This document shows, in pieces, positions 2,389 to 24,743 of a DNA stretch of 27,494 nucleotides. Made by a program: the position numbers and the translations under genes. The notes below the pieces were generated by a model. It was not told the origin of the DNA. It did not search any database and was given only the letters and a program-made list of their open reading frames with translations. Numbering within the stretch: position 1 is the stretch's first letter; every line of letters starts with the position of its first letter. The stretch is from a virus: the IMG/VR virus record IMGVR_UViG_3300044985_000164, positions 1 to 27,494 of that record; one strand, given 5' to 3'.

Positions 2389-3816
2389 ATGAGTACAACA
2401 ATAACGAGCAGACCTGAAGCAACTATTAACGGAAATGTTTTAACGGTTAGTAAATGGAACGCGGTACACCATCCAATTAAATACGGTTTGCAGCGTAGAG
2501 ATTACGAAACGGATGTAATTACTTTGGCTGGACCGGGCTTAATTGAATGTACGATAACGGCTGGTTTGGCTGGTTTGCCTTCAGTTGAATTCACGGTCGG
2601 TAAATTTGTTTATTTGGATATATTGGGCGCTAGTCCTGGAAGCGGAAATTTTGAAATTGATTCGATTGTTGATCCTGATACGATACTTTTGAAAAATCCT
2701 GATTTAGTTACGATAACTGGTTCGGGTTTCTTTAATGATTTAGAACGCTCAAACTTTTTTATTGAAACAAAAATATTCGACAAATCCAGCGGATCAAATG
2801 TTTTGCTTTCGACATCCATTAATAAACCATTAGCGGACGGATCAATTGAAGTAGATGTTAGTTCGTTTCTAAAGTCATTGGTTGGCTATGTAGATGAATA
2901 CGATTTTAGTACCTTAAACGTGAAGGATTTAAGTTTAGGCGGGATCTTTAATATAGAGTATGCGGAAAGGTGGTTCGGAAATATTGGTTCGTTTGTGGTA
3001 GATGCAAACGATTATTATTTTACCAATTCGTCTAAACAGATTGGCGATATATATGGTTCTAATATGGGCGAGTATGTTCCTTTTGAACAATTTACAATCG
3101 GAGAGATTGCGAAATTTATGACGGATTTTGAAGTACCGACACACTTTCCAAACTTCCCGCACTCTTTAACATTTATTCAGGGCGATGAATTAACGGGGAC
3201 GAATACTAGGTTGTTTATTGATACATTTGATATTAATAATTCGCCTTTATTTAACGGGAATGTTCCTTTAGATGTTACGCAAAAACCTTTTGTTAATAGG
3301 CTTTTGATTGCGCAAAGTGCTATTTCTTACGCTGAATTTTATATCGAAGATAATGGTACGCAAGTAATTGAAACTAAACGTATTAAGGTAGATAGCGAAT
3401 GTAAAGATTTTCCGATTTATTTAACCTGGATTAATTCTTTAGGTGGTTACGATTCTTGGTTATTCTTTAAAACTAATAAAGTAAAAATAAGGACGAAACT
3501 AGAAAACCAGCATTTAAAAAATATTGAAGATCTTGAAACCTCAATCGGTAATATTGATATTACGGGAAAATCAATACAACCGCAAGTCGATTTCGGTGCA
3601 AGGGTTCAGGCGGAAGATATGGACGGAATGGCGGGATTGTTTGGAAGTCCTAAAGTATTATATTTGACGAATCCTGAAACGTGGCAAACTGACGGGGCAA
3701 AATGGCAAAGGGTAATTATTAAACCAGGTTCTTTATTAACCTCGGAATCGAATGTTTCTTTTGTTGATATTAAATTGACGATGTTGTTACCAACGAGAAA
3801 CACACAAAAGGAATAA
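2389..3816 (+). CDS. Beta-rich tail structural protein
   Basis: A 475-residue protein starting directly after the stop of the gp10-like gene. The N-terminal block TSRPEATINGNVLTVSKWNA, followed by HHPIKYGLQRRDY, resembles the start of tail proteins in flavobacterial siphophages, where a strand-rich domain opens proteins encoded just before the large tail proteins. The rest is beta-rich with many Asp, Asn and Gly turns. A C-terminal domain begins near residue 380 (DLETSIGNIDITGKSIQPQVDFGAR). There is no signal peptide, membrane segment or enzyme motif. A distal-tail or baseplate role is most likely; the major tail protein is a less likely alternative. The next gene starts directly after this stop, so the two are probably cotranslated. 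Confidence 0.5.
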   Translation: MSTTITSRPEATINGNVLTVSKWNAVHHPIKYGLQRRDYETDVITLAGPGLIECTITAGLAGLPSVEFTVGKFVYLDILGASPGSGNFEIDSIVDPDTILLKNPDLVTITGSGFFNDLERSNFFIETKIFDKSSGSNVLLSTSINKPLADGSIEVDVSSFLKSLVGYVDEYDFSTLNVKDLSLGGIFNIEYAERWFGNIGSFVVDANDYYFTNSSKQIGDIYGSNMGEYVPFEQFTIGEIAKFMTDFEVPTHFPNFPHSLTFIQGDELTGTNTRLFIDTFDINNSPLFNGNVPLDVTQKPFVNRLLIAQSAISYAEFYIEDNGTQVIETKRIKVDSECKDFPIYLTWINSLGGYDSWLFFKTNKVKIRTKLENQHLKNIEDLETSIGNIDITGKSIQPQVDFGARVQAEDMDGMAGLFGSPKVLYLTNPETWQTDGAKWQRVIIKPGSLLTSESNVSFVDIKLTMLLPTRNTQKE

Positions 3817-6800
3817 ATGGCTTTAGAAGTTTACATAAACGAGGAATTAATCGAGTTAAAACCGAAGATAAATATCGGACTTACTTACCAGGTAGGATCG
3901 ATTTTAAATCTTAGCGGAAGGGCTGGAAATCTGAGTAATAAATTTACGGTTCCTAAAACTCAAATTAATACTAAGATCTTAGAACATATTTCGAATATAA
4001 ATTCGGGAACGGATATTCCATATAAAAGGAATTCGGGAAGGATAGTACAAAACGGAATCGAATTATTTCCTGACGGATTAGCGATTATAGAATCAGCGGG
4101 GCGAGATTATTCAATTACTGTTTATTCAGGTAATGTTTCGTTCTTTGATTTAATTAAGGGCCGCAATATTTCCGATTTGGATTGGTTGGATTCTTGCCAC
4201 GATTATGATATTCCTACAATAATTGCTTCGTTTACTAATAATTCAGATTATATTTATCCGATCGTTGATTGGGGAAACGGTGTTGAATTGTTAGATAATA
4301 CAGATACGCAAAATTCGAATTCTCTTTTACCTTGTGCGAGGACTTCAGTTATATTAGAAAAAATGATTTCGAATGTTGGCTACGAATTGAAAGGTACTTT
4401 TAAAGATACGGATCAATATTCACGACATTTAACGGCACCGAATAAATTTGGATTCTCAGAATCGGAAGTAAATAATGCAACTGGAACGGCTAATGATGTT
4501 GTTCCAATATCTGAAACAAAGCAAGTTTTAAGTACTTGTATTGATCCTTTACCTTTTCTCGAAGATAATCCTTTAGACTATCAAACGATCGCGTGGGAAT
4601 CGTTCTTAATAGATAAAGCGGTTTTTGATAATAATTATTTTGGAACATTTATTTTCAACAATGTAGGATCTTTTACGAATTATATTCCGATAGGTGGTTA
4701 TAATCAAATCGATGACGATCAAGTTCCCGACAATGCGATTTGGGGTAATGGTCAAATTAACGATACGCATTGTTGTTATACAAGCGACAAAAATACTGTT
4801 AACGATTTAATACTTCATAATTTTTCAACTGGTATTTCGATAGTTATTGCAACCGTTAATGGTTCTATTAATTGGAAGGTTTCAATGACTGAAACTAACG
4901 AAGGATATGTTGCGTATTCTGTTACTACGGCAACATTCAGAGAGGTTAAATTATACGAAATATCTACGGCAACAACAACAACGATTTATTCTAATAATCT
5001 TGGCGGGACTCCTTCGCCAGTTGAAAACTTAAAGATTTGGAATAATCGTATATCTTGGCGAGATATTGATGTTACGGGCGGATTGTTTATGTACGATATT
5101 ACATCGACAGTAACGAAAACTGTTTCAACTTCTTTAAATATTCTCGCTTCCGAAATAGATCATAACGGTGACGACTTAGTTTGGCACGACTTTACAACGA
5201 AGGATACAAGTATTTTTAATTATGTACTAGGAACTAACTCGGTTATTGAAAACACCCCAGGCGGTGGAGATATAGAAACATTAAAAGTTTTTGGAGATTA
5301 TGCAACATATTTCAACAATATAACAGACGATTTTCAATCTTTTAAAATTAGTACGTCATCTTTAGTTACTGTAATAAATCACGGATCTGATATTGTTGAC
5401 GGAAGTGCGAGAACATTAACGAAATTGTCCTGGATTGTTACGGGTGGTCAATTGTATTGGTACGATTTACTAACTGATACGATCGTTGTTACAATAGAAG
5501 TTAACGGAGAAGTTGGCGAGGACCGAATTGATATGTCCGATACTTACATTAGTTATATTGCTAATAGTTTTAATGATGTTAGATATTATAATTTAGTTGG
5601 TGTTGGTGCTGTTACAACAATCGATGCGACATTAGATCAAAAACAAAAAATTAAGGTCGGAAAATCGGATGTTATATTTTATTTGGTTGCTGGTTCATTA
5701 GATGAAATAAAATACTACGATATAAACGGAGCGAGTTTTTTTACTGCGATTACTGATATTGTTCAAAATGTTACTTTTGAAAAGGCACTAAATAACGATA
5801 GGCTTTTATTTGATAATCAAAATCCTGCGGATGATCCAACAACAAGGGTTGCGTATTTGAATCCTTTAAAAAATGCTTTAAGTGTTACCCATACAATGCA
5901 AATAAAGGAAAACGGAATTGCGATTTATTCACTAGATGTAACAAGAAACAATCCAGTTAATCCGCCTTATGATAGAACTATAAATACGGGAAATATTATT
6001 GTTAATACTGGTTCGGAATATTCTGTTTGCTTTTTTACTTCAGCAATTAAAGACGAAACTATTACATACCCGATCGACTTTGATTTAGATACAAGTTCGT
6101 TTTCATTTACGGCAACTTCTCGAATTCCTTATGGTGCGAAAATAGATTTTGCAGCGTTGTTCGATTGGGGTCAAGACAAATTATTGAAGGATGTTTTAAA
6201 TCAATATTCTTTAACAATACAAACAAATGAAATAACGAAACAAGTTTTTTTAACTCCATTGGACGACCTTGCGATAAATTTATTAAAAGCTAAAGATTGG
6301 AGCCAAAAAATAGATTTAAGAAAAGAACCAAATGTTAAATATAAATTATCAGGATACGGACAAACTAATTATTTTAATTATAAAGAAGATGACGATGTCG
6401 AAGAAGATTTCGGTCAAGGATCATTCGATATTAACGATACAAGTTTAGAAGCTGAAAAGGATATTATAACACTTAATTCGGCTGCGGCTGTAAGTGGCTT
6501 CCGTGTTGTTGACCATCATACGCCATTAATTCCGTTTTGTACTGGTCCGGGCAACTTCTTTGAAAAGAAATTAACTCGACATTTATTGTTAGATCCTGAA
6601 AACTTTACTTTAAATTTAAAGAATACGGATACGGTAGATACGGGAAGTACTTCAACGGATATTCCTTTTTGTTATTTTAAGAAGGGCGGCAAAGTTGATA
6701 GTTTAGATTTTCAAAGTTTACTTGACGATAATTATACGATACTTCAGGGAATGACGGATAAAATTAAATTCATTAGTGCGAATTTTATTCTTCGTGAAGT

Positions 6801-6945
6801 GGATGTTCAAAACATAGATTTCACAATTCCAATTTTTTTAGATGTTCATACGCCAGGTTTCCAAGCAAACGGTTATTTTTACATAAATAAAATATCCAAT
6901 TTTAAGGAAAACGCACCGACTAAAGTTGATTTAATAAGGTTATAA
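3817..6945 (+). CDS. Large tail/baseplate protein with inserted beta-propeller
   Basis: A 1042-residue protein. Residues 1-125 (ALEVYINEELIELKPKINIG ... SGRAGNLSNKFTVPKTQIN) look like the N-terminal domain of large Bacteroidota phage tail proteins. Residues of about 770-1042 resume that character (DKLLKDVLNQYSLTIQTNEI) and finish in a beta-rich end. Between them, roughly residues 300-685, lie seven to nine degenerate repeats of 30-45 residues. They follow a pattern of a hydrophobic strand, an aromatic or aspartate turn and a 'lYdi.t.t...' strand, for example FMYDITSTVTKT, IFNYVLGTNSVI, LYWYDLLTDTIV and VRYYNLVGVGAV. This is the texture of a TolB-like beta-propeller. By position, directly upstream of the tape measure gene, it is probably a tail-tip or baseplate component. 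The propeller may bind the host surface; that is inference. Confidence 0.6.
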   Translation: MALEVYINEELIELKPKINIGLTYQVGSILNLSGRAGNLSNKFTVPKTQINTKILEHISNINSGTDIPYKRNSGRIVQNGIELFPDGLAIIESAGRDYSITVYSGNVSFFDLIKGRNISDLDWLDSCHDYDIPTIIASFTNNSDYIYPIVDWGNGVELLDNTDTQNSNSLLPCARTSVILEKMISNVGYELKGTFKDTDQYSRHLTAPNKFGFSESEVNNATGTANDVVPISETKQVLSTCIDPLPFLEDNPLDYQTIAWESFLIDKAVFDNNYFGTFIFNNVGSFTNYIPIGGYNQIDDDQVPDNAIWGNGQINDTHCCYTSDKNTVNDLILHNFSTGISIVIATVNGSINWKVSMTETNEGYVAYSVTTATFREVKLYEISTATTTTIYSNNLGGTPSPVENLKIWNNRISWRDIDVTGGLFMYDITSTVTKTVSTSLNILASEIDHNGDDLVWHDFTTKDTSIFNYVLGTNSVIENTPGGGDIETLKVFGDYATYFNNITDDFQSFKISTSSLVTVINHGSDIVDGSARTLTKLSWIVTGGQLYWYDLLTDTIVVTIEVNGEVGEDRIDMSDTYISYIANSFNDVRYYNLVGVGAVTTIDATLDQKQKIKVGKSDVIFYLVAGSLDEIKYYDINGASFFTAITDIVQNVTFEKALNNDRLLFDNQNPADDPTTRVAYLNPLKNALSVTHTMQIKENGIAIYSLDVTRNNPVNPPYDRTINTGNIIVNTGSEYSVCFFTSAIKDETITYPIDFDLDTSSFSFTATSRIPYGAKIDFAALFDWGQDKLLKDVLNQYSLTIQTNEITKQVFLTPLDDLAINLLKAKDWSQKIDLRKEPNVKYKLSGYGQTNYFNYKEDDDVEEDFGQGSFDINDTSLEAEKDIITLNSAAAVSGFRVVDHHTPLIPFCTGPGNFFEKKLTRHLLLDPENFTLNLKNTDTVDTGSTSTDIPFCYFKKGGKVDSLDFQSLLDDNYTILQGMTDKIKFISANFILREVDVQNIDFTIPIFLDVHTPGFQANGYFYINKISNFKENAPTKVDLIRL

Positions 6946-6946
6946 G

Positions 6947-9526
6947 ATGGCAAAAAAAGAAACGATAATAATTGAACTGGATTTCGACACAAGCGATTTA
7001 ACGAAAGAGGCTGCAAAAACTAACAAAGTTATTTCGGAATTAAACGAAACGCAAAAACAATTGAAAAAGAATGGCGAGGAAGGTTCGATTCAATTTCAAA
7101 AAAATTCAGAGGCGTTAAGGGCAAACAAAAAAGAGTTAAGAGAAACGAACAAAACTATTGACCAATTAAACCAGGCAAACAAATCAACTGCGGGAAGTAA
7201 CGAGCAATTACGCGCTCAATTATCTATATTGACAAAAGAGTATAACGGATTATCTGAAGCGGAAAGGAAGAACGGTGCGAGAGGAAAAGAGTTAAACGCA
7301 CAAATAAATCAAACGACAGATACATTAAAGGAGAACGAGGAAGGAATCGGGGACAATAGGCGAAGTGTTGGGGACTACGGAAAGGCGTTGGGGGGTACTC
7401 CTTTCGGTTCTTTTATTGGTGGTATTAAATCGATGGGGGCTGCGTTTCTTGCGAATCCAATTGGATTAATTGTTACGGCAATAGTGTTGGCGTTAAAGGC
7501 TTTGTTTGAGGCTTTTAAATCTACCGAGGAAGGCGAAAATAAATTAGCAAAAGTAACGGCAGTTTTTTCAACTGTTTTCGAAAAATTGTTTAATATCTTA
7601 GAACCTTTAGCATCGTTTATATTTGATACATTAGGCAAAGCATTTAATTTTATAGTCGGAGAAGTTGAAAAAGCAGCGAAGGCGATTGAAGCGGGGCTTG
7701 AATTTTTTGGATTTGGAGAAGCGGCAGAGGGTTTGAAGGGTTATCGAAATGAGTTAGAACAAACGGCAAGGGCTGCCGCTTTGATTGCTGATGCGAGAGC
7801 AAAATCGGATAAAATTGAAAGGGGTTTAATTGTAGAAAATGCGAAAGCACAAAGGGCGATAGCTGAAGCGAGAGGTCAAGTAAATGATATTGAAAATGTT
7901 TCTGCAGCGGATAGAAAAAAAGCCTTAGAAGAAGCGGCAAGGCTTACGGATGAACTGGCAGCGAAAGAAGAATCGGCAGCACGATTAAGATTTAAGGCTT
8001 TGCAGCTTGAAAATGGTTTAACCAATTCAAATAAAGATGCGTTAGAAGCTGAAGCGGAAGCGGAAGCGGAGTTAATTAATATCCAAACTAAACGGGCGAA
8101 CCTTCAAAAAGGTTTATTATCTGACCGTAAAAAAGTAAATGCGGAAATATCAAAGGCAAATGCGGCAGCGGTAAAGGCTTCGCAAGATGCTTTAAAAAAG
8201 GAAATTGATTCGCAAAAATTACAATTACAGATATTTATTGAATCACAAGGAGTTCGTGCAAAAACATTGGACGAACAATTGAAACTTTCTGAACAAGTTG
8301 CGGCAAAAGAATTAGAGATTTTACAAAATCAACTGGATGCAAAATTAATTTCCGAAGAGCAATTTCAACTGGCTACATTAGAAATTCAAAACGAACAATT
8401 ATTACAACAATCTGAAGCGGTTATTGAAAACGCTGAACGTGAACTTGAAATTTTCAGAGAAGGAAACGCATCGAAATTAGAAGCGAATCAAATTTTAAAC
8501 GATGAATTATTTCTTCAGGAACAAGAACGACTTGCGCAAAACTTAGAAGCGGAACTTGAATTCCAGGCTTTAAGATTGGAGCAAGGTGTAATAAGTGAAC
8601 AAGAATTTAACGATGCAATTAACCAGGTTAACGAAGAAAATTTCCTGGCGAATAAAGATTTAGAAACTGAGAGAGAAGAAGCGGAAAAAGAAAAGCAGCT
8701 CGAGGATTTAGAATTACAAAAAGAGATTGACGATCTGCAAAGGGAAAGCGTTTTTGAACAAAGGCAAATTGATCTCGACAGACAAAAGGAACAAGAATTA
8801 TTGAACGCAGAAACTACGGGTGCGGATAAACAATTGATCGAAGAAAAGTTCGCGTTGTTCAATAAGAAATTAGAGAAGGACACAAGGAAAGCACAAGTCG
8901 GGGAAGCACTAGCAGCGTTTGATGCGATTGCAGGATTAGCGGCAGGAAATGCCGAAGCAGCGAAAGCGATTGCGATTGCTCAATCTATTATAAATGGCTT
9001 CCAGGGAGTAACGGCAGTACTGGCCGCAAAATCTACGATACCCGAACCAGCGGGTTCAATTGTTAAGGGTATTACTGCGGCTGCAATTGGTGCGACAGCC
9101 TTAATAAATGTTAATAAAATAAGAAGTACACCCGTTCCAAAGGCTGCGAAAGGTGGTGTTTTTGGTGGTAAATTACATTCGGAAGGTGGAACGAAAGGTT
9201 ACTTTGACGATGGAACACAAATCGAAGTTGAAAGGGGCGAATTGTTTGCGGTAGTAAATCGTAATTCAACTGGAATGATTAATGAACTTTCGGATCTTAA
9301 TGTTGCTGGTGGTGGTGTTTCATTTGGTCGAGGTGGTACCGAATCATTTCTTCAAGATGGTGGCGTTGCGATTGATAATGTTTCGGGAAATATTGATTCG
9401 GAAATTGAATCAAATTTACAGATAGTTTCAGCGGTTGAGAGTTTACCTCCGCCAGTTGTGGTTGTTCAAGATATTAACGAAGTCCAGGGCGATACGGCTG
9501 CGGTTGTTGATAGGGCAAATTTATAA
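6947..9526 (+). CDS. Tail tape measure protein
   Basis: An 859-residue, Glu/Lys/Gln/Ala-rich protein that is almost wholly helical and coiled coil, the hallmark of the siphophage tape measure, which sets tail length and is ejected with the DNA. Residues 25-135 are coiled coil. Residues 164-190 (MGAAFLANPIGLIVTAIVLA) are hydrophobic and may enter the host membrane. About 220-640 is a long coiled coil, and about 648-726 is Ala/Ile-rich. The C-terminus has a glycine-rich 'AKGGVFGGKLHSEGGTKGYF' element and GELFAVVNRNSTGMI, as seen at the ends of Bacteroidota tape measures. At about 0.15 nm per residue a tail near 130 nm would be expected. The start is 1 bp after the previous stop. Confidence 0.88.
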   Translation: MAKKETIIIELDFDTSDLTKEAAKTNKVISELNETQKQLKKNGEEGSIQFQKNSEALRANKKELRETNKTIDQLNQANKSTAGSNEQLRAQLSILTKEYNGLSEAERKNGARGKELNAQINQTTDTLKENEEGIGDNRRSVGDYGKALGGTPFGSFIGGIKSMGAAFLANPIGLIVTAIVLALKALFEAFKSTEEGENKLAKVTAVFSTVFEKLFNILEPLASFIFDTLGKAFNFIVGEVEKAAKAIEAGLEFFGFGEAAEGLKGYRNELEQTARAAALIADARAKSDKIERGLIVENAKAQRAIAEARGQVNDIENVSAADRKKALEEAARLTDELAAKEESAARLRFKALQLENGLTNSNKDALEAEAEAEAELINIQTKRANLQKGLLSDRKKVNAEISKANAAAVKASQDALKKEIDSQKLQLQIFIESQGVRAKTLDEQLKLSEQVAAKELEILQNQLDAKLISEEQFQLATLEIQNEQLLQQSEAVIENAERELEIFREGNASKLEANQILNDELFLQEQERLAQNLEAELEFQALRLEQGVISEQEFNDAINQVNEENFLANKDLETEREEAEKEKQLEDLELQKEIDDLQRESVFEQRQIDLDRQKEQELLNAETTGADKQLIEEKFALFNKKLEKDTRKAQVGEALAAFDAIAGLAAGNAEAAKAIAIAQSIINGFQGVTAVLAAKSTIPEPAGSIVKGITAAAIGATALINVNKIRSTPVPKAAKGGVFGGKLHSEGGTKGYFDDGTQIEVERGELFAVVNRNSTGMINELSDLNVAGGGVSFGRGGTESFLQDGGVAIDNVSGNIDSEIESNLQIVSAVESLPPPVVVVQDINEVQGDTAAVVDRANL

Positions 9527-10034: not shown

Positions 10035-10457
10035 ATGAAAGTAGTAAAAGATCAAAACGAAATTGTTTCAACTGAGCCAAAAGAAAAAAAGTACGTGCCA
10101 AAAATTGTAATTTGTCCCGATTACAAAAGTCTTGAATTAGTTAAACAAGAATTTATTGCGATGATTGGGCCGCAAGTTGTCGGTATGTGTTTATGTACTT
10201 TGAAGGAAGCGATCGAACATAAGTTACCAATAAGAGAAGCGCAAAAGAGTTTCAAGGATTTAAAGCCCCACGATATTTATTTAGCGAATACAGTCGATGA
10301 ACTGGTTCCCGATGATTACCAGGATCAAAAAGAAATTATCGATTTGGATTCGGTCGTTAAATACTTCTTTGAAAATGAGAGAAAGCAAGAACGAAATAAA
10401 CCTTGTTTATGTGAATCGGGAAAAAAGTTTAAACATTGTTGTATAAATGTTAACTAA
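10035..10457 (+). CDS. Small protein with C-terminal SEC-C zinc motif
   Basis: A 140-residue charged protein of unknown role. The last 20 residues contain PCLCESGKKFKHCC (Cys124, Cys126, Cys135, Cys136), matching the SEC-C pattern CxCGSGKKYKxCC except for Glu in place of the first Gly. This motif binds zinc in SecA tails and in many small proteins. Residues 23-90 look like a compact alpha/beta domain (IVICPDYKSLELVKQEFIAM) with no recognised family. The gene has its own predicted promoter and a structured leader, which sets it apart from the flanking tail genes. Its end overlaps the end of the convergent minus-strand gene by 8 bp. It lies downstream of the tail genes but need not be structural. 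Confidence 0.6.
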   Translation: MKVVKDQNEIVSTEPKEKKYVPKIVICPDYKSLELVKQEFIAMIGPQVVGMCLCTLKEAIEHKLPIREAQKSFKDLKPHDIYLANTVDELVPDDYQDQKEIIDLDSVVKYFFENERKQERNKPCLCESGKKFKHCCINVN

Positions 10458-10726: not shown

Positions 10727-10754
10727 TTGTTATTATTTTTATTCGTTACTTTTG
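10727..10754 (+). promoter_or_regulatory. Promoter for the appendage operon
   Basis: TTG at 10727-10729, a 17-bp spacer, and TACTTTTG at 10747-10754 fit the TTG/TAnnTTTG pattern. The box covers a possible TTG start at 10752, so translation should begin at the ATG at 10770. Together with the minus-strand box at 10702 it forms a divergent promoter pair. Confidence 0.6.
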
Positions 10755-10769
10755 TTTAAAATCGATACT

Positions 10770-11276
10770 ATGTTAGATCTAAATTCTGTAACAATAACCA
10801 AAGAAGATAACGGAAATATTTCTGTTTTAATTGGTGGTTCAAAATCATTCAGTTTATTACCTGGTGCGTATTTAACTAAAATGTTAAATTCAGTTATTGT
10901 TCGAGGCTTAGACAATGTAATTCTTTACGAGTTCTTTTATACTGAAGTTGACGAAGTTATTAGTGGTGATGGCGGAACGGTTTCGGTTACTGATAACGAT
11001 ATTCTTTTCGATCAATTGAACGAGTTTTTTTTTTTTGAAAGCGTAGGCGGTTCGGTTCCTTCGGGAACACCTGGATCCGAAGTTATTGTTCAAAATTTAG
11101 TTGGCGGAGATAATACAATTAACCACAATTTAAACAAAACAATTATTTCTTTTTCTGTTAAAGATGTAAACGATTTTGTTTTTGCTGAAGGAAATATTAT
11201 TGATTCAAATAATTTCAATATAAACTTATCGGGCGGTTCAATTACTGGCGCAACAATTTCATTTATTTATATTTAG
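10770..11276 (+). CDS. Putative tail appendage protein
   Basis: A 168-residue beta-rich protein. The ATG at 10770 is chosen because an upstream in-frame TTG (10752) lies inside the promoter's -7 box. The C-terminal part (VQNLVGGDNTINHNLNKTII, then SFSVKDVND and NNFNINLSGG) follows a strand pattern common near the ends of phage fibre and appendage proteins: 'G.N.I.HNL', a 'V.D..' turn and a final 'GA.I.F.YI' strand. It has no signal peptide or membrane segment. Twelve consecutive T (11025-11036) encode four Phe in a row (EFFFFE), a tract prone to slippage. It begins the operon that runs to about 15.6 kb. A host-contact role is inferred. Confidence 0.5.
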   Translation: MLDLNSVTITKEDNGNISVLIGGSKSFSLLPGAYLTKMLNSVIVRGLDNVILYEFFYTEVDEVISGDGGTVSVTDNDILFDQLNEFFFFESVGGSVPSGTPGSEVIVQNLVGGDNTINHNLNKTIISFSVKDVNDFVFAEGNIIDSNNFNINLSGGSITGATISFIYI

Positions 11277-11280
11277 AGTT

Positions 11281-12948
11281 ATGATAAAAAGATTATTATT
11301 TTTAATAGCAATTTTAATTCCTTTCATTTCGATTGGTCAATTAGATGTAAAGCCAAATTATACGAAACCATTTTTTCAAGGTAGTTTAGCGGTTAAGGAT
11401 ACGATGCAAGTTGATAGCGTTATTCAGATTTCAAATAGTGGAATTATTAAATCAGTTAACGGAAACGCTTTTTTAAATTTAAGGGCTAACGGCAACGATG
11501 ATGAGGTCGAAATGGTTGGAAGCAATTCGGGATTTAAAATATTTGGTTCTTTGGGTTCTTGTGCTTTTGGAAATAATGTCGATGCGGGAAATGATTTAAC
11601 ATCGGAAGTAAATATTAGCAATTTTGGAAGTGCTTTATTTTTAGGTAATAAAAATGTAGGAATTGATAAAACGGGTTTAGTTGGTTTAGTTTATAACCAG
11701 GCTTTTTCTTGGAATTTTGATCCTGATAAACCAAATTACCCGACACAAATAAGCACACAAAAAGGCGACTATAAAATTGGTGTAACGAATTCGGCTTCTT
11801 TGGGTGGATTTCATACCATTGTTAAAACAGATAATACGGGTTACGTTAATCAATTAGGATTTAATTCGGGCGGAGGATTTGAAACGATACTTTCAGAGAT
11901 AACACCAACGGCAGATCGACAGTTATATTTGCCGAATATAAACGACACTATTGCGGCAAGAAGTAATTTATTAGAAAATACAGATATAACATTGTCGGGA
12001 AATAGAATTGTTACAATGTCGGGAAATTCTTTTATGTTTAGTGGAGGCGAAACGAAAATAAAAGGAGCAGGATCAGACGGCACGAGCGAGGCTTTTAGAG
12101 TTGAAAATTTAGCAGGGGGAAACTCGTCTTTTGTGGTAGATAACGAAAAACATATTTCACAAAACAGTAATAACCCTATTTCAAGTACGCAATATTTTTT
12201 AAATTCGGACGGTAGTGAGTACGGTTTTAGAATAAATGGTTCGCATACTGTGGCGGGATTTTCTCAGACGGGAGGCGCACCGCAAGGTGGATATACTTGC
12301 GGGGGGCTTTTAGGAGGTAATACGGGATTTTGGGTTGTAGGCGCTGCCGCAACCACCGCAGATAGAACGGGAGGTAGGTTCTACGTAGATGGAGCGAATA
12401 CGGCAGATAATACGGCTTTAACATTAAGAGCCGGAAACGGTTTGGTTAATAGGGCTATCGATTCGCAAATGGGGGACGTAGTTATCCAAGCGGGTAACGT
12501 TATTATAGGAGCTAATTCGGGCAACGCTTCCGCTTTGTTAGATGTAACAAGTACGACACAAGGATTTTTAAAGCCTAGATTAACAACAGTACAAAGGGAT
12601 GCTATCGTTTCTCCCGCTTCAGGTTTAGAGGTTTATAACGTAACAACTAACGAGCCTAATTATTATGATGGTTCGGGTTGGGGTAGTTCGGTTTTAAATA
12701 TTTTTAATTCAAACGGAACGATTGCTTCCGATAGGGTTTTAACTATGGGCGCAAACAACTTTCAGTTTTCAACTACAACGGGTAGTTTAAGCATAGGTAC
12801 AACGGTTACTACTTCTAAGGTAAATGTAGGGGGTGACGTTGAAACTACAATAGCGGGGTCGGGAATAATTGTATTAGATGAATTGGACGGTAATAGATAT
12901 AGAATACATACTGAAAATGGAAATTTATTCGTTGAATTAGTACCTTAA
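11281..12948 (+). CDS. Tail-fibre-like protein with N-terminal signal peptide
   Basis: A 555-residue Gly/Asn/Ser/Thr-rich, beta-repetitive protein. Residues 1-20 (MIKRLLFLIAILIPFISIGQ) form a textbook Sec signal peptide with a Bacteroidota-style end. The body has short repeats such as 'GNRIVTMSGNSFMFSGG' and 'DRVLTMGANNFQFS'. Around residues 418-465 is the block SALLDVTSTTQGFLKPRLTT with a following YYDGSGW, which is recurrent in Bacteroidota phage fibres and surface proteins. A signal peptide on a virion protein is odd, since assembly is cytoplasmic. Either the gene was captured from a host surface protein, or the product is exported before lysis. It is the second gene of the appendage operon, 4 bp after the first. 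Confidence 0.6.
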   Translation: MIKRLLFLIAILIPFISIGQLDVKPNYTKPFFQGSLAVKDTMQVDSVIQISNSGIIKSVNGNAFLNLRANGNDDEVEMVGSNSGFKIFGSLGSCAFGNNVDAGNDLTSEVNISNFGSALFLGNKNVGIDKTGLVGLVYNQAFSWNFDPDKPNYPTQISTQKGDYKIGVTNSASLGGFHTIVKTDNTGYVNQLGFNSGGGFETILSEITPTADRQLYLPNINDTIAARSNLLENTDITLSGNRIVTMSGNSFMFSGGETKIKGAGSDGTSEAFRVENLAGGNSSFVVDNEKHISQNSNNPISSTQYFLNSDGSEYGFRINGSHTVAGFSQTGGAPQGGYTCGGLLGGNTGFWVVGAAATTADRTGGRFYVDGANTADNTALTLRAGNGLVNRAIDSQMGDVVIQAGNVIIGANSGNASALLDVTSTTQGFLKPRLTTVQRDAIVSPASGLEVYNVTTNEPNYYDGSGWGSSVLNIFNSNGTIASDRVLTMGANNFQFSTTTGSLSIGTTVTTSKVNVGGDVETTIAGSGIIVLDELDGNRYRIHTENGNLFVELVP

Positions 12949-15634: not shown

Positions 15635-16726
15635 ATGATTATAAAAAAGATTTACATAAACGGACAAATTGGAAGCACCGAAGATTCAAAAGGTGTTGAA
15701 TTGCAAGACGTAATTATGCAAGTTGAGGCGAATAAAGATGCCGACCTTTTACATATTCATATTAATAGCCCTGGCGGTTCGGTTAATACTGGACGATTAA
15801 TTGCGGAGTATATTTCTAAATTACCAAATGCGGTAACGATTGCAGAAGGTTTATGCGGATCTATTGCAACGGAAATTCATTTAGCGGTAGCAATTGAAAA
15901 GCGAAAAATTATAGCAGGAACGCAATATTTTATACATAACCCTTTATTACAAGGAATTAGCGGAAACGCTTCTGAATTATTAGAGGCTTCGGAGTATGTT
16001 AAAACATACCAAACGGAAATGTTGAAAATGTATGTTAATAGAACGGGAACTGATAAAGCGGCAATTGAGGGACTTATGAACGCTGAAGCAAGTTTAACGG
16101 ATGAACAATGTATTAAACTTGGTTTCGTTTCTCAGATCTTAGCGAAACAAGAATTAAAGGCGGTTGCTTTTATGGACGAAAAGAAAATTAAAATTGATAA
16201 TAATAAAAACTTTGATATGTCAAAAATTGCACAACAAATAAAAGAAGGATTCGCAGGAATTAGAGCAGAATTAGGATTAACTAAACCAGTTGTATTCGCT
16301 GGAATGATTGTAACTGATAACGGGGAATTAAGTTTTGCTTCGGAGGGCGATATTCCTGAAGTTGGCGAAGTTGTAATGATTGGCGAAGAAATTGCGCCTG
16401 AAGGTGTTTATACAATGGAGAACGAAACAGTTGTGACGGTTGTTGCGGATGGTGTTGTTGAATCGGTTGTTGTTAAGGAAGAAGAAGAAACCGTTGAGGC
16501 TTTGAAGTTGAAATTAGAAGAACAAGCTACGGCACACGCTTCTGAAATTGCTGAAATGAACGAAACATTCACGGAACAAATGGATGCTTTGAAAGTTGAG
16601 ATCGGTTCGAACTTTGTTCCTAAAGCTGAAAAGAAAGTTTTTGCTAAAAAGAAAGTTGTTAAGGAAGAAAAATTAACAATGAAGCAAAGATTGGCGAAGC
16701 AAAAGGAAGAAAGAGAAGCGAAATAG
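15635..16726 (+). CDS. ClpP-like head maturation protease fused to a scaffold-like tail
   Basis: A 363-residue protein. Residues 1-160 match a ClpP/S14-type phage prohead protease: glycine loop NSPGGSV (44-50), nucleophile Ser76 in EGLCGSIATEIH, and His101 in YFIHNPL. The third catalytic residue is less clear, probably near the EASLTDEQCIKLGFV segment. About residues 215-275 form a small beta domain (VVFAGMIVTDNGELSFASEG). From about 285 a Glu/Lys-rich coiled coil and a basic tail follow, typical of scaffolding. The enzyme would assemble inside the procapsid, process head proteins and release or destroy its scaffold portion. The next gene is the major capsid protein, as expected. Cleavage sites cannot be read here. 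Confidence 0.85.
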   Translation: MIIKKIYINGQIGSTEDSKGVELQDVIMQVEANKDADLLHIHINSPGGSVNTGRLIAEYISKLPNAVTIAEGLCGSIATEIHLAVAIEKRKIIAGTQYFIHNPLLQGISGNASELLEASEYVKTYQTEMLKMYVNRTGTDKAAIEGLMNAEASLTDEQCIKLGFVSQILAKQELKAVAFMDEKKIKIDNNKNFDMSKIAQQIKEGFAGIRAELGLTKPVVFAGMIVTDNGELSFASEGDIPEVGEVVMIGEEIAPEGVYTMENETVVTVVADGVVESVVVKEEEETVEALKLKLEEQATAHASEIAEMNETFTEQMDALKVEIGSNFVPKAEKKVFAKKKVVKEEKLTMKQRLAKQKEEREAK

Positions 16727-16783
16727 TAATCTACCAGGATCAAAAGAATTAAAAAAAAATTGTAGAATTAAAAAATAAAAAAG

Positions 16784-17854
16784 ATGATAATTAACCCAGC
16801 CGATTTAACCTTTAACGGGGACGAAATAAAAGAATTAAGCGAAGCGATTTTCGAATCTACATTCGCAAAACCTGAAGCAAGTTTGTTTCATACTTTCACA
16901 CCTGGAATAAAGGCAAAAAAGCAAATTGCTTTATTAGGTAGAATTGAAGGTTTAACTGGTAAAGGAAGTGGCGAATGTGACCCAACGGCAAACGGATCAA
17001 CGATCGGTATGTCGGAAAAGTTTTGGGATCCTGCAACGGTTTCTAATAGAGAGACGGAATGTTGGGAAAACTTAAAAGGATCGTTCTTTATTTACGGTAC
17101 GAGTTGTGGAATTGCACAAGCGGATTTAACTTCGACTGATTTTTGGGCGTTCTTAATGGAAAGAATGGCGGATACGTTAATCGAAGAATATTACAGAATC
17201 GCTTGGTTTAGTGATTTGGCTGCGGATAACGCACCAGCTGGAAATATTACTGCGGGTATTGATCTTGGATATTTCAATAAAATTGACGGACTTTGGAAAC
17301 AATTGTTCGCTATTGTTACTGCGGATGCAAATAGAAAAACTGCGGGTATTGATTCAAGAAACGGACAAGCTACTTTCGCATTGCAGGAATTCGATGCTAC
17401 GGATACGGCTAACAATGTTGTAACTAACACGCTTCAAAATATGCGTTACGGATCTGACTTCAGATTAAGAGGTAAAGAAGGTTTACAATATATCGTAACT
17501 CAATCGGTTGCGGATCAGTACGAAAGAGAGTTAACGGCTGCGAATATTTCGTTTACGACTGAAAGGTTAGAAAACGGAATGACGATGTTAAGAAGTGGCG
17601 GAATCGAAGTTATTGGTTTCCAATTTTGGGATCGAATGATTAGAACGTACGAAAATGATGGTACGGTTTATTTCTTACCTCATAGAGCGTTATTAACTGT
17701 TAAAGAAAATACGCAAATCGGAACTTGTGAAGAAGCGAATCTTTCTGAAATGGGGACGATTTACGATCCTATTAAAAAAGAAATGCATTTAGATACTGGA
17801 TATAATATCGATGCGAAGATAATCGAAGATTATTTGGTTCAAGTTGCTTACTAA
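16784..17854 (+). CDS. Major capsid protein
   Basis: A 356-residue protein of the major capsid type found in Bacteroidota siphophages. Recognisable parts are an N-terminal helical region (FNGDEIKELSEAIFESTFAK), a middle helix with FWAFLMERMADTLIEEYYRI, and a C-terminal third with RSGGIEVIGFQFWDRMIRTY, FLPHRALLTVKENTQIGTCE and YNIDAKIIEDYLVQVAY. The position directly after the protease/scaffold gene supports the call, as does a likely terminator soon after it, which may keep its mRNA abundant. An HK97 fold is expected from family knowledge and not shown by sequence alone. Its 57-bp upstream gap is A-rich, as for strongly translated genes in this group. Confidence 0.88.
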   Translation: MIINPADLTFNGDEIKELSEAIFESTFAKPEASLFHTFTPGIKAKKQIALLGRIEGLTGKGSGECDPTANGSTIGMSEKFWDPATVSNRETECWENLKGSFFIYGTSCGIAQADLTSTDFWAFLMERMADTLIEEYYRIAWFSDLAADNAPAGNITAGIDLGYFNKIDGLWKQLFAIVTADANRKTAGIDSRNGQATFALQEFDATDTANNVVTNTLQNMRYGSDFRLRGKEGLQYIVTQSVADQYERELTAANISFTTERLENGMTMLRSGGIEVIGFQFWDRMIRTYENDGTVYFLPHRALLTVKENTQIGTCEEANLSEMGTIYDPIKKEMHLDTGYNIDAKIIEDYLVQVAY

Positions 17855-17876
17855 GTAACTTATAAAAAGAAATAAC

Positions 17877-17901
17877 GGGGGCGTAAAAAACCCCCTTTTT
17901 T
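17877..17901 (+). terminator. Rho-independent terminator-like hairpin after the capsid gene
   Basis: GGGGG (17877-17881) pairs with CCCCC (17891-17895) across a nine-base loop, followed by six T. Position and form fit a terminator, probably partial because the next genes lack an evident promoter of their own. Related hairpins lie at 25098 and 25591. Confidence 0.75.
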
Positions 17902-17923
17902 AGAATATTTAATAAATAAAATT

Positions 17924-18505
17924 ATGGCAACTATTTGCGGAAAAATTACAAGCGGGTTTGATATTGATTGCGACAATCCTTTACAAGCTGGTGCGGAAGA
18001 TACATTAATTCTTATAAATCGTGACGATTATTTAGGTGCGGCAATTACTAAGAATGTTGCAAACCCTCAGATTATCGAGGATATTGTTTTGCCAGTTCCT
18101 GCGGTTGCTTATGCTTTTGAAGGAAAAAATAATTCAATCGCTCCGAAGTATGACTTCATTAAACAAACATTTGCGGAGGTTTATAACCACGAAATTAATT
18201 TCAAGGTGTTCACGGTTAGCCCTGATTCGAAACTTGAATTAGAGAAAATGGCGAAGGGTACGATGGTTGCAATTGTGAACAATAAATTTAAAGGTATTGA
18301 CGGAAACGCAGCATACGAAATTTACGGTGCGGATGCTGGTTTAGTTGTTACGCAAAATATTCGTGATGTTATTAGTGCGGATAACCAGGGGGCGTTCGAT
18401 ATTATATTGAAATCAAACGAAACTTCGTTAGAACCACACATGCCGAAAACATTTTTCAATACTGATTTAGCAACGACAAAAGGACTCGTTGACGGATTAT
18501 TGTAA
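17924..18505 (+). CDS. Probable tail-tube or capsid-decoration protein
   Basis: A 193-residue protein directly after the major capsid gene and its hairpin, in a short operon of its own. The order ICGKITSGFDIDCDNPLQAG, a strand-rich middle with AYAFEGKNNSIAPKYDFIKQ, then MVAIVNNKFKGIDGNAAYEI and FNTDLATTKGLVDGLL recalls a family that follows the capsid gene in Bacteroidota phages. I think it is the major tail (tube) protein or a decoration protein; its size is usual for a tube subunit. No other clear tube gene is visible in the window, which favours the first option. A strong terminator closes its transcript, consistent with a highly expressed virion protein. Confidence 0.5.
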   Translation: MATICGKITSGFDIDCDNPLQAGAEDTLILINRDDYLGAAITKNVANPQIIEDIVLPVPAVAYAFEGKNNSIAPKYDFIKQTFAEVYNHEINFKVFTVSPDSKLELEKMAKGTMVAIVNNKFKGIDGNAAYEIYGADAGLVVTQNIRDVISADNQGAFDIILKSNETSLEPHMPKTFFNTDLATTKGLVDGLL

Positions 18506-18529
18506 AATACGATTAAAATAACCTAATTG

Positions 18530-18565
18530 AAAAAAGCATAATCGGATTTGATTATGCTTTTTTTT
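18530..18565 (+). terminator. Strong Rho-independent terminator
   Basis: GCATAATC (18536-18543) pairs perfectly with GATTATGC (18550-18557) around a six-base loop, with six A before and eight T after. It ends the 17924 gene and is followed at once by a new promoter box. Confidence 0.9.
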
Positions 18566-18567
18566 AT

Positions 18568-18575
18568 TACTTTTG
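18568..18575 (+). promoter_or_regulatory. Promoter -7 box TACTTTTG
   Basis: TACTTTTG fits TAnnTTTG. It starts 3 bp after the terminator and ends 4 bp before the ATG at 18580, predicting a leaderless or nearly leaderless mRNA for the portal-connector operon. Confidence 0.55.
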
Positions 18576-18579
18576 GGTT

Positions 18580-19173
18580 ATGGATTTAAAAGAACAAATT
18601 ATATTATTACAATCTTATGAGAGTAGTAAAAAAGTTTGGCGAAATATTCATACATCGAGCGAATGGATATTAGCGGATAAAGTTGCTTCGCTTGTAATGA
18701 GTCAAGGACTAAACAAATCGAAAAATTGTGGTTGCTTGGACGACCTTTTTTATATGTTAAAAACTATCAGTAAATCAAAAATTGAATTAAAACAATTACA
18801 AATGGAAAACAAGTTTAAATTAAAGCCAGGTATTTTATTATTCTTAGACGGAACGCATTATTCAAATGCAAATATTACCGATAAAAAAAGTATTGAAATC
18901 TTAAAAAGGTTTCCAGTAAAAATAAAAGATTTCGAAACGTATCCTGAAGATTGGGAAAAGTTAACGGTAAGTGAAGCGGCACCGACAAATGATCCTGAAA
19001 CAAGTCCAGCGAATACAGATGCGGTTGAATTAGCCGATATGGATGCAGAGGAACTAAGAAAGTTATGCGATGAACTGGCGGCAAATACGGAAGGATTAAA
19101 GAAGTTGCACCACGCAACAAAGGATTCGCAAAAAATGATCGACTACCTTTTAAAGAATAAGGTTAACGGGTAA
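18580..19173 (+). CDS. Hypothetical head-module protein
   Basis: A 197-residue protein opening the portal operon. It has a helical N-terminal region with a Cys pair (KSKNCGCLDDLF, Cys50 and Cys52). A central strand block FKLKPGILLFLDGTHYSNAN leads to ITDKKSIEILKRFPV and YPEDWEK. A Pro/Thr/Asp-rich linker follows (about residues 130-150), then a helical C-terminus (AEELRKLCDELAANTEGLKK) resembling small SAP/HeH-like helical units. I have seen the central block in other Bacteroidota phage head regions, always unnamed. It may be a minor head or scaffold-like protein; the function is not known. It precedes the portal gene by 4 bp. Confidence 0.45.
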   Translation: MDLKEQIILLQSYESSKKVWRNIHTSSEWILADKVASLVMSQGLNKSKNCGCLDDLFYMLKTISKSKIELKQLQMENKFKLKPGILLFLDGTHYSNANITDKKSIEILKRFPVKIKDFETYPEDWEKLTVSEAAPTNDPETSPANTDAVELADMDAEELRKLCDELAANTEGLKKLHHATKDSQKMIDYLLKNKVNG

Positions 19174-19177
19174 TTGA

Positions 19178-20437
19178 ATGAAAGCAACTGCAACGGATAT
19201 AGAGAAGCGAATTACAACTACGGTTAATAAAACTGAAGGAATTATTAATTATGATTTCGATAATTCATACCCCCAAAGGATAAATACGATTATTAATTCT
19301 TCGGGGACTGGTACGTTATGCGCTTCTTTATACGCTAAATTTTTGTACGGTGGTGGTTTCCTTCAAGAAGCATTGGCGAAAACTATTGTAAGCCCTCAAA
19401 AGAAAATGACGGCAAATAAATTACTGGTTAAGGTTGGAAAGTCTTATTCGAAATTTAATGGTTTTGCAATTCACGTAAATTATAACGCACTTTATAAAAA
19501 GAGTTCATTAAATTATATTCCGTTTCAGGATATTAGATTTACGACTTCGGACAATGAAGATCATCCGAATATGATGGCGGTTTACGATGATTGGGACCGA
19601 ACGAAAAGTTCTAAGATTAAGAAAAAAGAAATCGATTATATTAATTTTTATAATCCTGATCCTGAAGTAATAGCGGAACAAGTTGCCGAAGCTGGTGGTT
19701 GGGAAAATTACAAAGGTCAAATTTATTATTTAACGAACGAGGGTATCGAATATCCTTTAGCGCCAGTCGATTCAGTTTTAGAAGATGTTCAAACAGATAG
19801 CCAGGCGAAAAATTTCAAGTTTAGGAATATAAGCACGAATTTTATGGCTTCGCATATCCTTGAAACTGGCGAGTTCGAAGATCCAAACGATAAAGATATT
19901 TTTTTAGATAATATAAACACTTTCCAGGGGGCCGATGATTCAAGTAAAATTTTATTATTAGAAAAGTCTACGGATGAAAGTTCATTTGTTTTAACTAAAG
20001 TCGATATTCAAGATATTGATAAACTTTATCAATTTACTGAAGAATCAGTTCGGGACAATATTATTCGAAATCATTTAATTCCTTCGGTTTTATTGTTGGC
20101 TACTCCTGGAAAATTAGGTTCGGCAAACGAAATAAAAGATGCTACGGCATTTTATAACGGAGTTACTGAGGACGAACGATTGTTAATTGAAGAATCTTTT
20201 ACGGAGTTGTTTAATAATTCAATGTTTATTGTTCAACCTGAATTCGATATTATTCCAGTAGCCGCAAAAACAGTTGAGGCAAAAGACACGAACGAAGGAA
20301 AAAAAGAAATAGTTGCGTTATTAATTAACGAATCAATTTCGACAAAAAAGAAAAAAATAATTCTTCAGGTAATTTACAATTATTCAAATGAAGATGCGGA
20401 AGAATTAATTCAAAGTGAAGATCTAAACGTAAACTAA
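19178..20437 (+). CDS. Portal protein
   Basis: A 419-residue protein of the phage portal type, the dodecameric ring through which DNA enters and leaves the head. Recognisable parts are residues 29-60 (NSYPQRINTIINSSGTGTLC, then LYAKFLYGGGF), the crown/stem region with VYDDWDRT and NFYNPDPE, and residues 246-264 (DNINTFQGADDSSKILLLEK), the 'FQG.....KILL' element seen in Bacteroidota portals. An acidic C-terminus ends the protein. The ATG at 19178 lies 4 bp after the previous stop. Unusually it sits 18.5 kb from the terminase gene and downstream of the capsid gene. The next gene overlaps its stop by one base. Confidence 0.75.
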   Translation: MKATATDIEKRITTTVNKTEGIINYDFDNSYPQRINTIINSSGTGTLCASLYAKFLYGGGFLQEALAKTIVSPQKKMTANKLLVKVGKSYSKFNGFAIHVNYNALYKKSSLNYIPFQDIRFTTSDNEDHPNMMAVYDDWDRTKSSKIKKKEIDYINFYNPDPEVIAEQVAEAGGWENYKGQIYYLTNEGIEYPLAPVDSVLEDVQTDSQAKNFKFRNISTNFMASHILETGEFEDPNDKDIFLDNINTFQGADDSSKILLLEKSTDESSFVLTKVDIQDIDKLYQFTEESVRDNIIRNHLIPSVLLLATPGKLGSANEIKDATAFYNGVTEDERLLIEESFTELFNNSMFIVQPEFDIIPVAAKTVEAKDTNEGKKEIVALLINESISTKKKKIILQVIYNYSNEDAEELIQSEDLNVN

Positions 20438-23864: not shown

Positions 23865-24743
23865 ATGAATGTATTAAGTTTGTTTGATGGAATGAGTTGC
23901 GGAAGGATTGCGCTCGATAAAGCGGGAATTAAAGTATCTAATTATTATGCGAGTGAAATAGATAAACACGCAATAAATGTTTCGAAAAAAAATTACCCTG
24001 ATATTATTCAAGTTGGTAATATTATTGATTTAAAAGGATCAGATTTTAAAAATATAACTTTGTTAATTGGTGGTTCACCTTGTCAAAGTTTTAGTCGTAA
24101 TGGCGATGGTTCGGGATTTAGCGGTAAATCAAAACTATTTTTTGAATATGTAAGAATATTAAAAGAGGTAAACCCCGAATATTTTCTTCTTGAAAATGTT
24201 GTAATGAAAAAAGAATGGGAAAATGTGATTAGCGAAATTTTAGGTGTTGAACCGATATTGATTGATAGCAAACTTGTTTCGGCTCAGAAACGGCAACGAT
24301 TATACTGGACGAATATACCTGAAGTAAAACAACCAAAGGACAAAGGAATAAATTTAAAAGATATTATTTCGGGGGATCATGAAATAATAAACGACAACGA
24401 TGTTGTTTTAGGTCGGGCGTGTAAAGATTTTATAATAAAGAACGGAACGAATAAAGGGTATTTAATTGCTGAAAATGGCGATGGTGTTAACTTGGAGTTC
24501 CCGAACTCTAAAACCAGGCGCGGAAGGGTTTCTAAATCAAAAATAAATACTTTAAATTGCGGTTGTAATTATGGTGTTGTAATAGATGGTAATTTGTTAA
24601 AATTAAATATTACAGATATTGAAAGACTTCAAACAATACCCGACAATTACACCGAAGGAGTTAGTGAAAACCAAAGGCGAAAAATGATTGGTAACGGTTG
24701 GACGGTAGATTCAATTACGCATATTTTTAAAAGTATAAATTAA
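23865..24743 (+). CDS. Orphan C5 cytosine DNA methyltransferase
   Basis: A 292-residue enzyme methylating cytosine at C5 from S-adenosylmethionine. Motifs appear in canonical order: I, VLSLFDGMSCGRIALDKAGI (residues 3-22); IV, GGSPCQSFS with catalytic Cys73; VI, ENV (110-112); VIII, QKRQRLYW (141-148); IX, ERLQTIPDNYT; X, MIGNGWTVDSITHIF. The region between VIII and IX, about 100 residues, would hold the target-recognition domain, so specificity cannot be read. No restriction endonuclease gene is nearby, so it is solitary, probably protecting phage DNA or marking it. It sits at the end of the small early operon, 21 bp after its neighbour. All key motifs are intact. Confidence 0.92.
   Translation: MNVLSLFDGMSCGRIALDKAGIKVSNYYASEIDKHAINVSKKNYPDIIQVGNIIDLKGSDFKNITLLIGGSPCQSFSRNGDGSGFSGKSKLFFEYVRILKEVNPEYFLLENVVMKKEWENVISEILGVEPILIDSKLVSAQKRQRLYWTNIPEVKQPKDKGINLKDIISGDHEIINDNDVVLGRACKDFIIKNGTNKGYLIAENGDGVNLEFPNSKTRRGRVSKSKINTLNCGCNYGVVIDGNLLKLNITDIERLQTIPDNYTEGVSENQRRKMIGNGWTVDSITHIFKSIN

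Follow-up and report, generated by a model that had tools for sequence, protein, structure and literature searches.

Introduction

Among the closest described counterparts of the locus analyzed here are the evolved Dit and Tal proteins, which carry carbohydrate-binding modules within loops of a galectin or gp27-like core; these modules attach to the host less strongly than does the true receptor-binding protein (PMC7291167). Such modular decoration of core tail proteins has been reported mostly from Gram-positive hosts' phages and with small carbohydrate-binding modules. Beta-propellers are likewise established components of phage tails: phi11 gp45 and 80alpha gp61 both contain five-bladed propellers, PhiKZ gp131C a seven-bladed one, and others occur in PRD1 P2, crassvirus gp44, and the T7 nozzle (PMC4901313; PMC7048315; PMC10172136). 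A preliminary description of the present locus, which called propellers unusual in phage tail-tip proteins, was overstated on this point. Each of the phi11, 80alpha, PhiKZ, PRD1, crassvirus, and T7 proteins is a receptor-binding protein in its own right, a baseplate protein, or a nozzle. In the literature that we searched (most subscription papers fell outside its scope), no propeller inserted in Dit, Tal, or a comparable core tail protein is described.

Here we analyze a 27.5-kb viral contig (IMG/VR record IMGVR_UViG_3300044985_000164; 27,494 nucleotides; hereafter, the window, i.e., the whole stretch of DNA), in which the tail genes come first and the head genes follow. One tail gene encodes a 1042-residue protein with a long repetitive insert. 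In our preferred reading, a propeller of eight, possibly nine, blades was inserted once in a conserved tail protein and probably serves as an accessory adhesion module. It would share with the propellers listed above its fold and its location in a virion tail protein; in contrast to them, it is an insert of eight to nine units in the middle domain of a different family, and no sequence similarity to them was detected. The new part is this placement of a predicted propeller in the middle domain of an uncharacterized, probably Bacteroidota-specific tail family. Modular decoration may thus extend to a large family of Bacteroidota-phage tail proteins, here with a propeller of ~390 residues.

The tail protein and its family

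The tail protein gene, its parts, and the adjacent tape-measure gene are as follows:

3817..6945, + strand: gene for the 1042-aa tail protein (open reading frame; PHROG 33698, E = 2e-11; tblastn matches to phi46:1 gp20 and TCUEAP1_7)
3817..4446, + strand: conserved N-terminal block, residues 1-210 (aligned in 145 relatives; 59.5% identical to the sister phage L138)
4447..4716, + strand: first part of the variable middle domain, residues 211-300 (alignment; a beta-sandwich by the look of its sequence)
4717..5877, + strand: inserted, predicted beta-propeller, residues 301-687, nine units of 39-48 aa (self-repeat; absent in relatives; present in L138; fold)
5878..6126, + strand: second part of the middle domain, residues 688-770 (L005, L029, L031, and other relatives align from residues 703-722 on)
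6127..6942, + strand: conserved C-terminal block, residues 771-1042 (alignment with relatives; 56% identical to L138)
6947..9526, + strand: tape-measure protein, directly 3' of the tail protein gene (PHROGs tape measure, E = 8e-12)

Two homologues come from described phages. The record of gp20 of Cellulophaga phage phi46:1 (610 aa) lists it as a virion protein identified by MS/MS, and the homologue in Elizabethkingia phage TCUEAP1_7 has 821 aa; both genes lie immediately upstream of the tape measure, like the gene in the window. These proteins share family, gene position, and homologous N- and C-terminal blocks with the window protein, but are shorter and lack the propeller. The homologous end blocks and the position upstream of the tape measure place the 1042-aa protein in the phi46:1 gp20/PHROG 33698 tail family. 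Another insert-free member occurs in a Flavobacteriales metagenome-assembled genome; given these three occurrences, the hosts of the window phage are probably Bacteroidota.

The preliminary description regarded the flanks of the insert as ordinary tail-protein sequence, and residues 1-210 and 771-1042 indeed align with 145 relatives. Neither Pfam nor PDB profiles matched the flanks as a Dit or gp27-like core, and the sampled genomes yielded no PF06605 match. Comparison of the flanks with GPD/VgrG (gp27/VgrG-type) hubs by hhalign gave E = 0.58, which is not significant, and the sole alignment fell on a helix-strand motif typical of hubs. Some members of the family carry other additions: one (L074, 4944-7571) is extended at its C-terminal end by a PKD domain and another (L013, 5914-8589) by a Gly/Ser-rich stretch, and single members match CBM5/12, C1q, and tail-fiber families.

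Distribution and history of the insert

All 145 other open reading frames of more than 500 aa that align by the end blocks (95 non-redundant at 80% identity) lack the insert. Between these blocks, the window protein is longer than its relatives by a median of 381 residues; the middle domain spans ~110-230 residues in most insert-free relatives, which have total lengths of 514-892 residues, the shortest of them truncated where their contigs stop. MAFFT was unreliable in the middle domain, either spreading the middle of the relatives over the insert or misplacing C-terminal fragments.

The insert was found in one sister phage (L138; L197 is the same contig), whose protein has 1059 aa and is 46% identical to the window protein end to end. 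A maximum-likelihood tree built from the flanking blocks places these two proteins in a clade with 100/100 support nested among insert-free members, such that the presence of the insert needs only one change. Most likely, to judge from this tree, the propeller was gained once in the lineage of the window phage and its sister. Alignment and tree thus bear out the proposal that the propeller is an insert, and nearly all homologues lack it.

The further idea that it was captured from a host gene found no backing. Outside the sister phage, no homologue of the insert, and hence no donor, turned up in several hundred genomes from the phylum, in phage records and viral contigs, or in Pfam, PHROGs, and PDB. 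The G+C content of the insert (33.9%) equals that of its flanks (33.3 and 31.8%), i.e., no signature of transfer is seen in base composition.

Repeat units of the insert

Eight, perhaps nine, degenerate units of ~43 residues make up residues 301-687, a repeat signal far beyond that expected by chance. Scored at least 20 residues off the diagonal, self-alignment of residues 297-690 reached 105, compared with 47 ± 8.5 for shuffled sequences (maximum 67, n = 30). With other gap costs, the window insert scored 88 against 44 ± 8 and the sister insert 97 against 43 ± 7.5, while the two flanks scored 34 and 35. The repeat offset is ~43 residues and nine units can be drawn:

4717..4860, + strand: propeller unit 1, residues 301-348 (repeat register; leave-one-out; four strands in the model)
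4861..5001, + strand: propeller unit 2, residues 349-395 (repeat register; leave-one-out; model)
5002..5136, + strand: propeller unit 3, residues 396-440 (register; model; weak TIGR04275 match at 399-430)
5137..5259, + strand: propeller unit 4, residues 441-481 (repeat register; leave-one-out; model)
5260..5388, + strand: propeller unit 5, residues 482-524 (repeat register; model)
5389..5505, + strand: propeller unit 6, residues 525-563 (repeat register; model)
5506..5634, + strand: propeller unit 7, residues 564-606 (repeat register; leave-one-out; model)
5635..5760, + strand: propeller unit 8, residues 607-648 (register; leave-one-out; the model shows only two strands)
5761..5877, + strand: possible unit 9 or closing strands, residues 649-687 (unrecovered in leave-one-out; low model confidence)

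When each unit was searched with a profile of the others, units 1, 2, 4, 7, and 8 were recovered clearly and units 3, 5, and 6 weakly; unit 9 was not recovered in this test. Self-alignment and leave-one-out profiles therefore both show tandem units in the ~40-50-residue range of propeller blades. Averaged over the repeat register, beta propensity peaks four times per unit, with turn residues in between. The preliminary description, which placed degenerate repeats at residues ~300-685, was correct to within a few residues, and the three motifs it quoted are all present in the 1042-aa open reading frame.

Predicted fold

We used AlphaFold2 to model the sister insert from an alignment of the two inserts alone (mean pLDDT 55.9, pTM 0.60). 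Units 1-6 were mostly modeled at pLDDT 55-90, and the model is poor after residue 263. Each of units 1-7 contains exactly four antiparallel strands, in the register drawn from sequence beforehand. At E ≤ 0.001, a Foldseek search with this model returned 1615 PDB chains; the best 50 of these are all beta-propellers (50/50; E from 2e-12 to 4e-9), several of them eight-bladed, and the top matches are the eight-bladed Fbw7 and the designed eight-bladed Tako8/Ika8. The best structural matches are thus solved propellers. Among viral predictions, the best matches were WD-repeat, RCC1, and other propeller proteins. As a control, a single-sequence AlphaFold model of the window insert reached a pLDDT of 31 and had no PDB match at E ≤ 0.001; the propeller match is therefore not a by-product of beta-rich composition.

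These predictions agree with the propeller fold put forward in the preliminary description and indicate that the insert is a beta-propeller of probably eight, possibly nine, four-stranded blades in a putative ring. Closure of the ring is where the model is weakest: units 8-9 have pLDDT values of ~26-38 with spurious helices, the TM-score to the query does not exceed 0.52, and PDB searches gave no significant sequence match of the insert to any solved propeller. These points would also suit a different repetitive beta architecture, e.g., a solenoid or an open stack of sheets, but four strands per 43-residue unit over seven units and best structural matches that are uniformly closed propellers make such a fold very unlikely. 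We also consider it doubtful that the insert is a natural nine-bladed closed propeller forming an exposed ring at the tail tip that engages or triggers at a receptor; no exposed nine-bladed ring serving as a tail decoration was found in the literature searched.

Family assignment was pursued with domain libraries. No match to a Pfam propeller family was obtained. The sole weak library matches to propellers were TIGR04275 for the window insert (E = 0.14; 11.9 of 85 bits) and TolB for the sister insert (E = 0.004; 16 of 428 bits), both below the cut-offs. TolB and the Methanosarcina surface propellers of TIGR04275 resemble the insert in having a 43-residue, four-stranded repeat with the texture D-[hydrophobic]-x-x-Y-[DN]-[IL]...T-[IV], and the two independent matches may weakly favor propeller families as well. 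Their scores, however, fall far under the curated cut-offs, and the insert is therefore not filed in either family; none of the TolB, WD40, and TIGR04275 families was matched above its curated cut-off. A Pfam match to flavivirus NS2A (E = 0.001) and an NCBIfam match to a porin were also below cut-off and are biologically implausible.

Putative role in adhesion

The likeliest role of the propeller, by analogy, is that of an accessory adhesion domain, comparable to the carbohydrate-binding modules that decorate evolved Dit and Tal proteins. As in those proteins, an extra beta-rich module sits mid-protein in a conserved tail protein encoded beside the tape-measure gene and is absent from most relatives, as seen in both alignment and tree. 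The two cases differ in that the module here is a ~390-residue propeller with putative binding activity rather than a carbohydrate-binding module, and in that the core family comes from Bacteroidota phages and is at most a putative relative of Dit and Tal.

Gene order and the virion location of the phi46:1 homologue suggest that the two end blocks form the tip or core of the tail beside the tape measure. The propeller would project from the tail tip, and its loops may bind a glycan or protein on the host surface; a separate fiber or spike would then fix specificity after this contact. The adhesion-type domains in other family members (PKD, CBM5/12, C1q, and tail-fiber matches) count in favor of such a role. 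No known carbohydrate-binding motif was recognized in the insert. Between window and L138, no part of the tail protein diverges more than the insert (36% identity, compared with 56-60% in the end blocks), and the whole tail protein diverges far more than the tape measure (46% vs. 78% identity between window and sister). This is the pattern expected of a surface-exposed part, but the fast divergence of the insert is also compatible with a simple lack of constraint. With one sister phage that carries the insert and ~95 relatives that do not, its function is directly testable by comparing proteins with and without it.

Host specificity and the fiber-like locus

A second locus that may govern host range lies downstream of the tape measure:

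10752..12948, + strand: rival host-range locus, tail-fiber-like genes of 174 aa and 555 aa (N-terminus conserved, C-terminus different in the sister)

The first gene (10752-11276) corresponds at 52% identity to the first 127 residues of a 527-aa open reading frame of the sister phage (L199, 11195-12775), the shared N-terminus comprising 124 residues, whose while the C-terminal part of the sister protein is unrelated to the window and beta-helix-like by eye. The 555-aa protein is encoded by a separate gene without a match in the sister phage; it starts with a signal-peptide-like stretch. A conserved N-terminus with a replaced C-terminus is the usual mosaic of tail fibers and spikes; judged from these comparisons, this locus is a better candidate than the propeller gene for choosing the host.

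This bears on the earlier designation of the tail gene as the specificity determinant, with the propeller as the main receptor-binding domain. The divergence of the insert within an already divergent protein would suit that reading, as would the receptor-binding proteins of phi11 and 80alpha, in which a propeller is the putative GlcNAc-binding part (PMC4901313; PMC7048315). Three observations nevertheless render it quite unlikely. The propeller is present in only two of ~97 family members and is therefore not a general specificity part; a separate, classic fiber-mosaic locus lies downstream; and the propeller is retained in both phages, at 36% identity, while the fiber-like C-terminus has been wholly replaced, which suggests that the propeller does not set host range. 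That designation is accordingly unsupported.

Propellers are common protein-docking folds. Rather than contacting the host, the insert could thus serve within the virion as a docking platform for the downstream fiber or spike or for another tail protein. The two phages that retain it have the N-terminal 124 residues of the fiber-like gene in common but differ at its C-terminus, a pattern that would suit a fixed attachment partner. On the other hand, insert-free relatives hold the same gene position beside the tape measure, and the insert diverges faster than the N-terminus of its presumed partner (36% vs. 52% identity). Docking is consequently possible but rather unlikely, and accessory adhesion remains the reading that we prefer.

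Other genes in the window

Directly upstream of the tail protein gene, positions 2389-3816 encode a 475-aa protein, the first part of which is fast-evolving (36% identity). It corresponds to two separate adjacent genes in different frames in the sister phage (L199, 2778-3896 and 3787-4383), an arrangement also present in L016 and L139; on this comparison, the window gene appears to be a fusion of two tail genes. A DNA methyltransferase gene near the early region (23865-24743) has no match in the sister phage record. Just past the tape measure, positions 10035-10457 encode a small protein with a C-terminal SEC-C zinc motif (Pfam, E = 9e-8) that is 51% identical in the sister. The head genes (maturation protease, probable capsid protein, and portal; 15635-20437) follow the tail genes, reversing the usual siphophage order, and the portal is 80% identical between window and sister phage.
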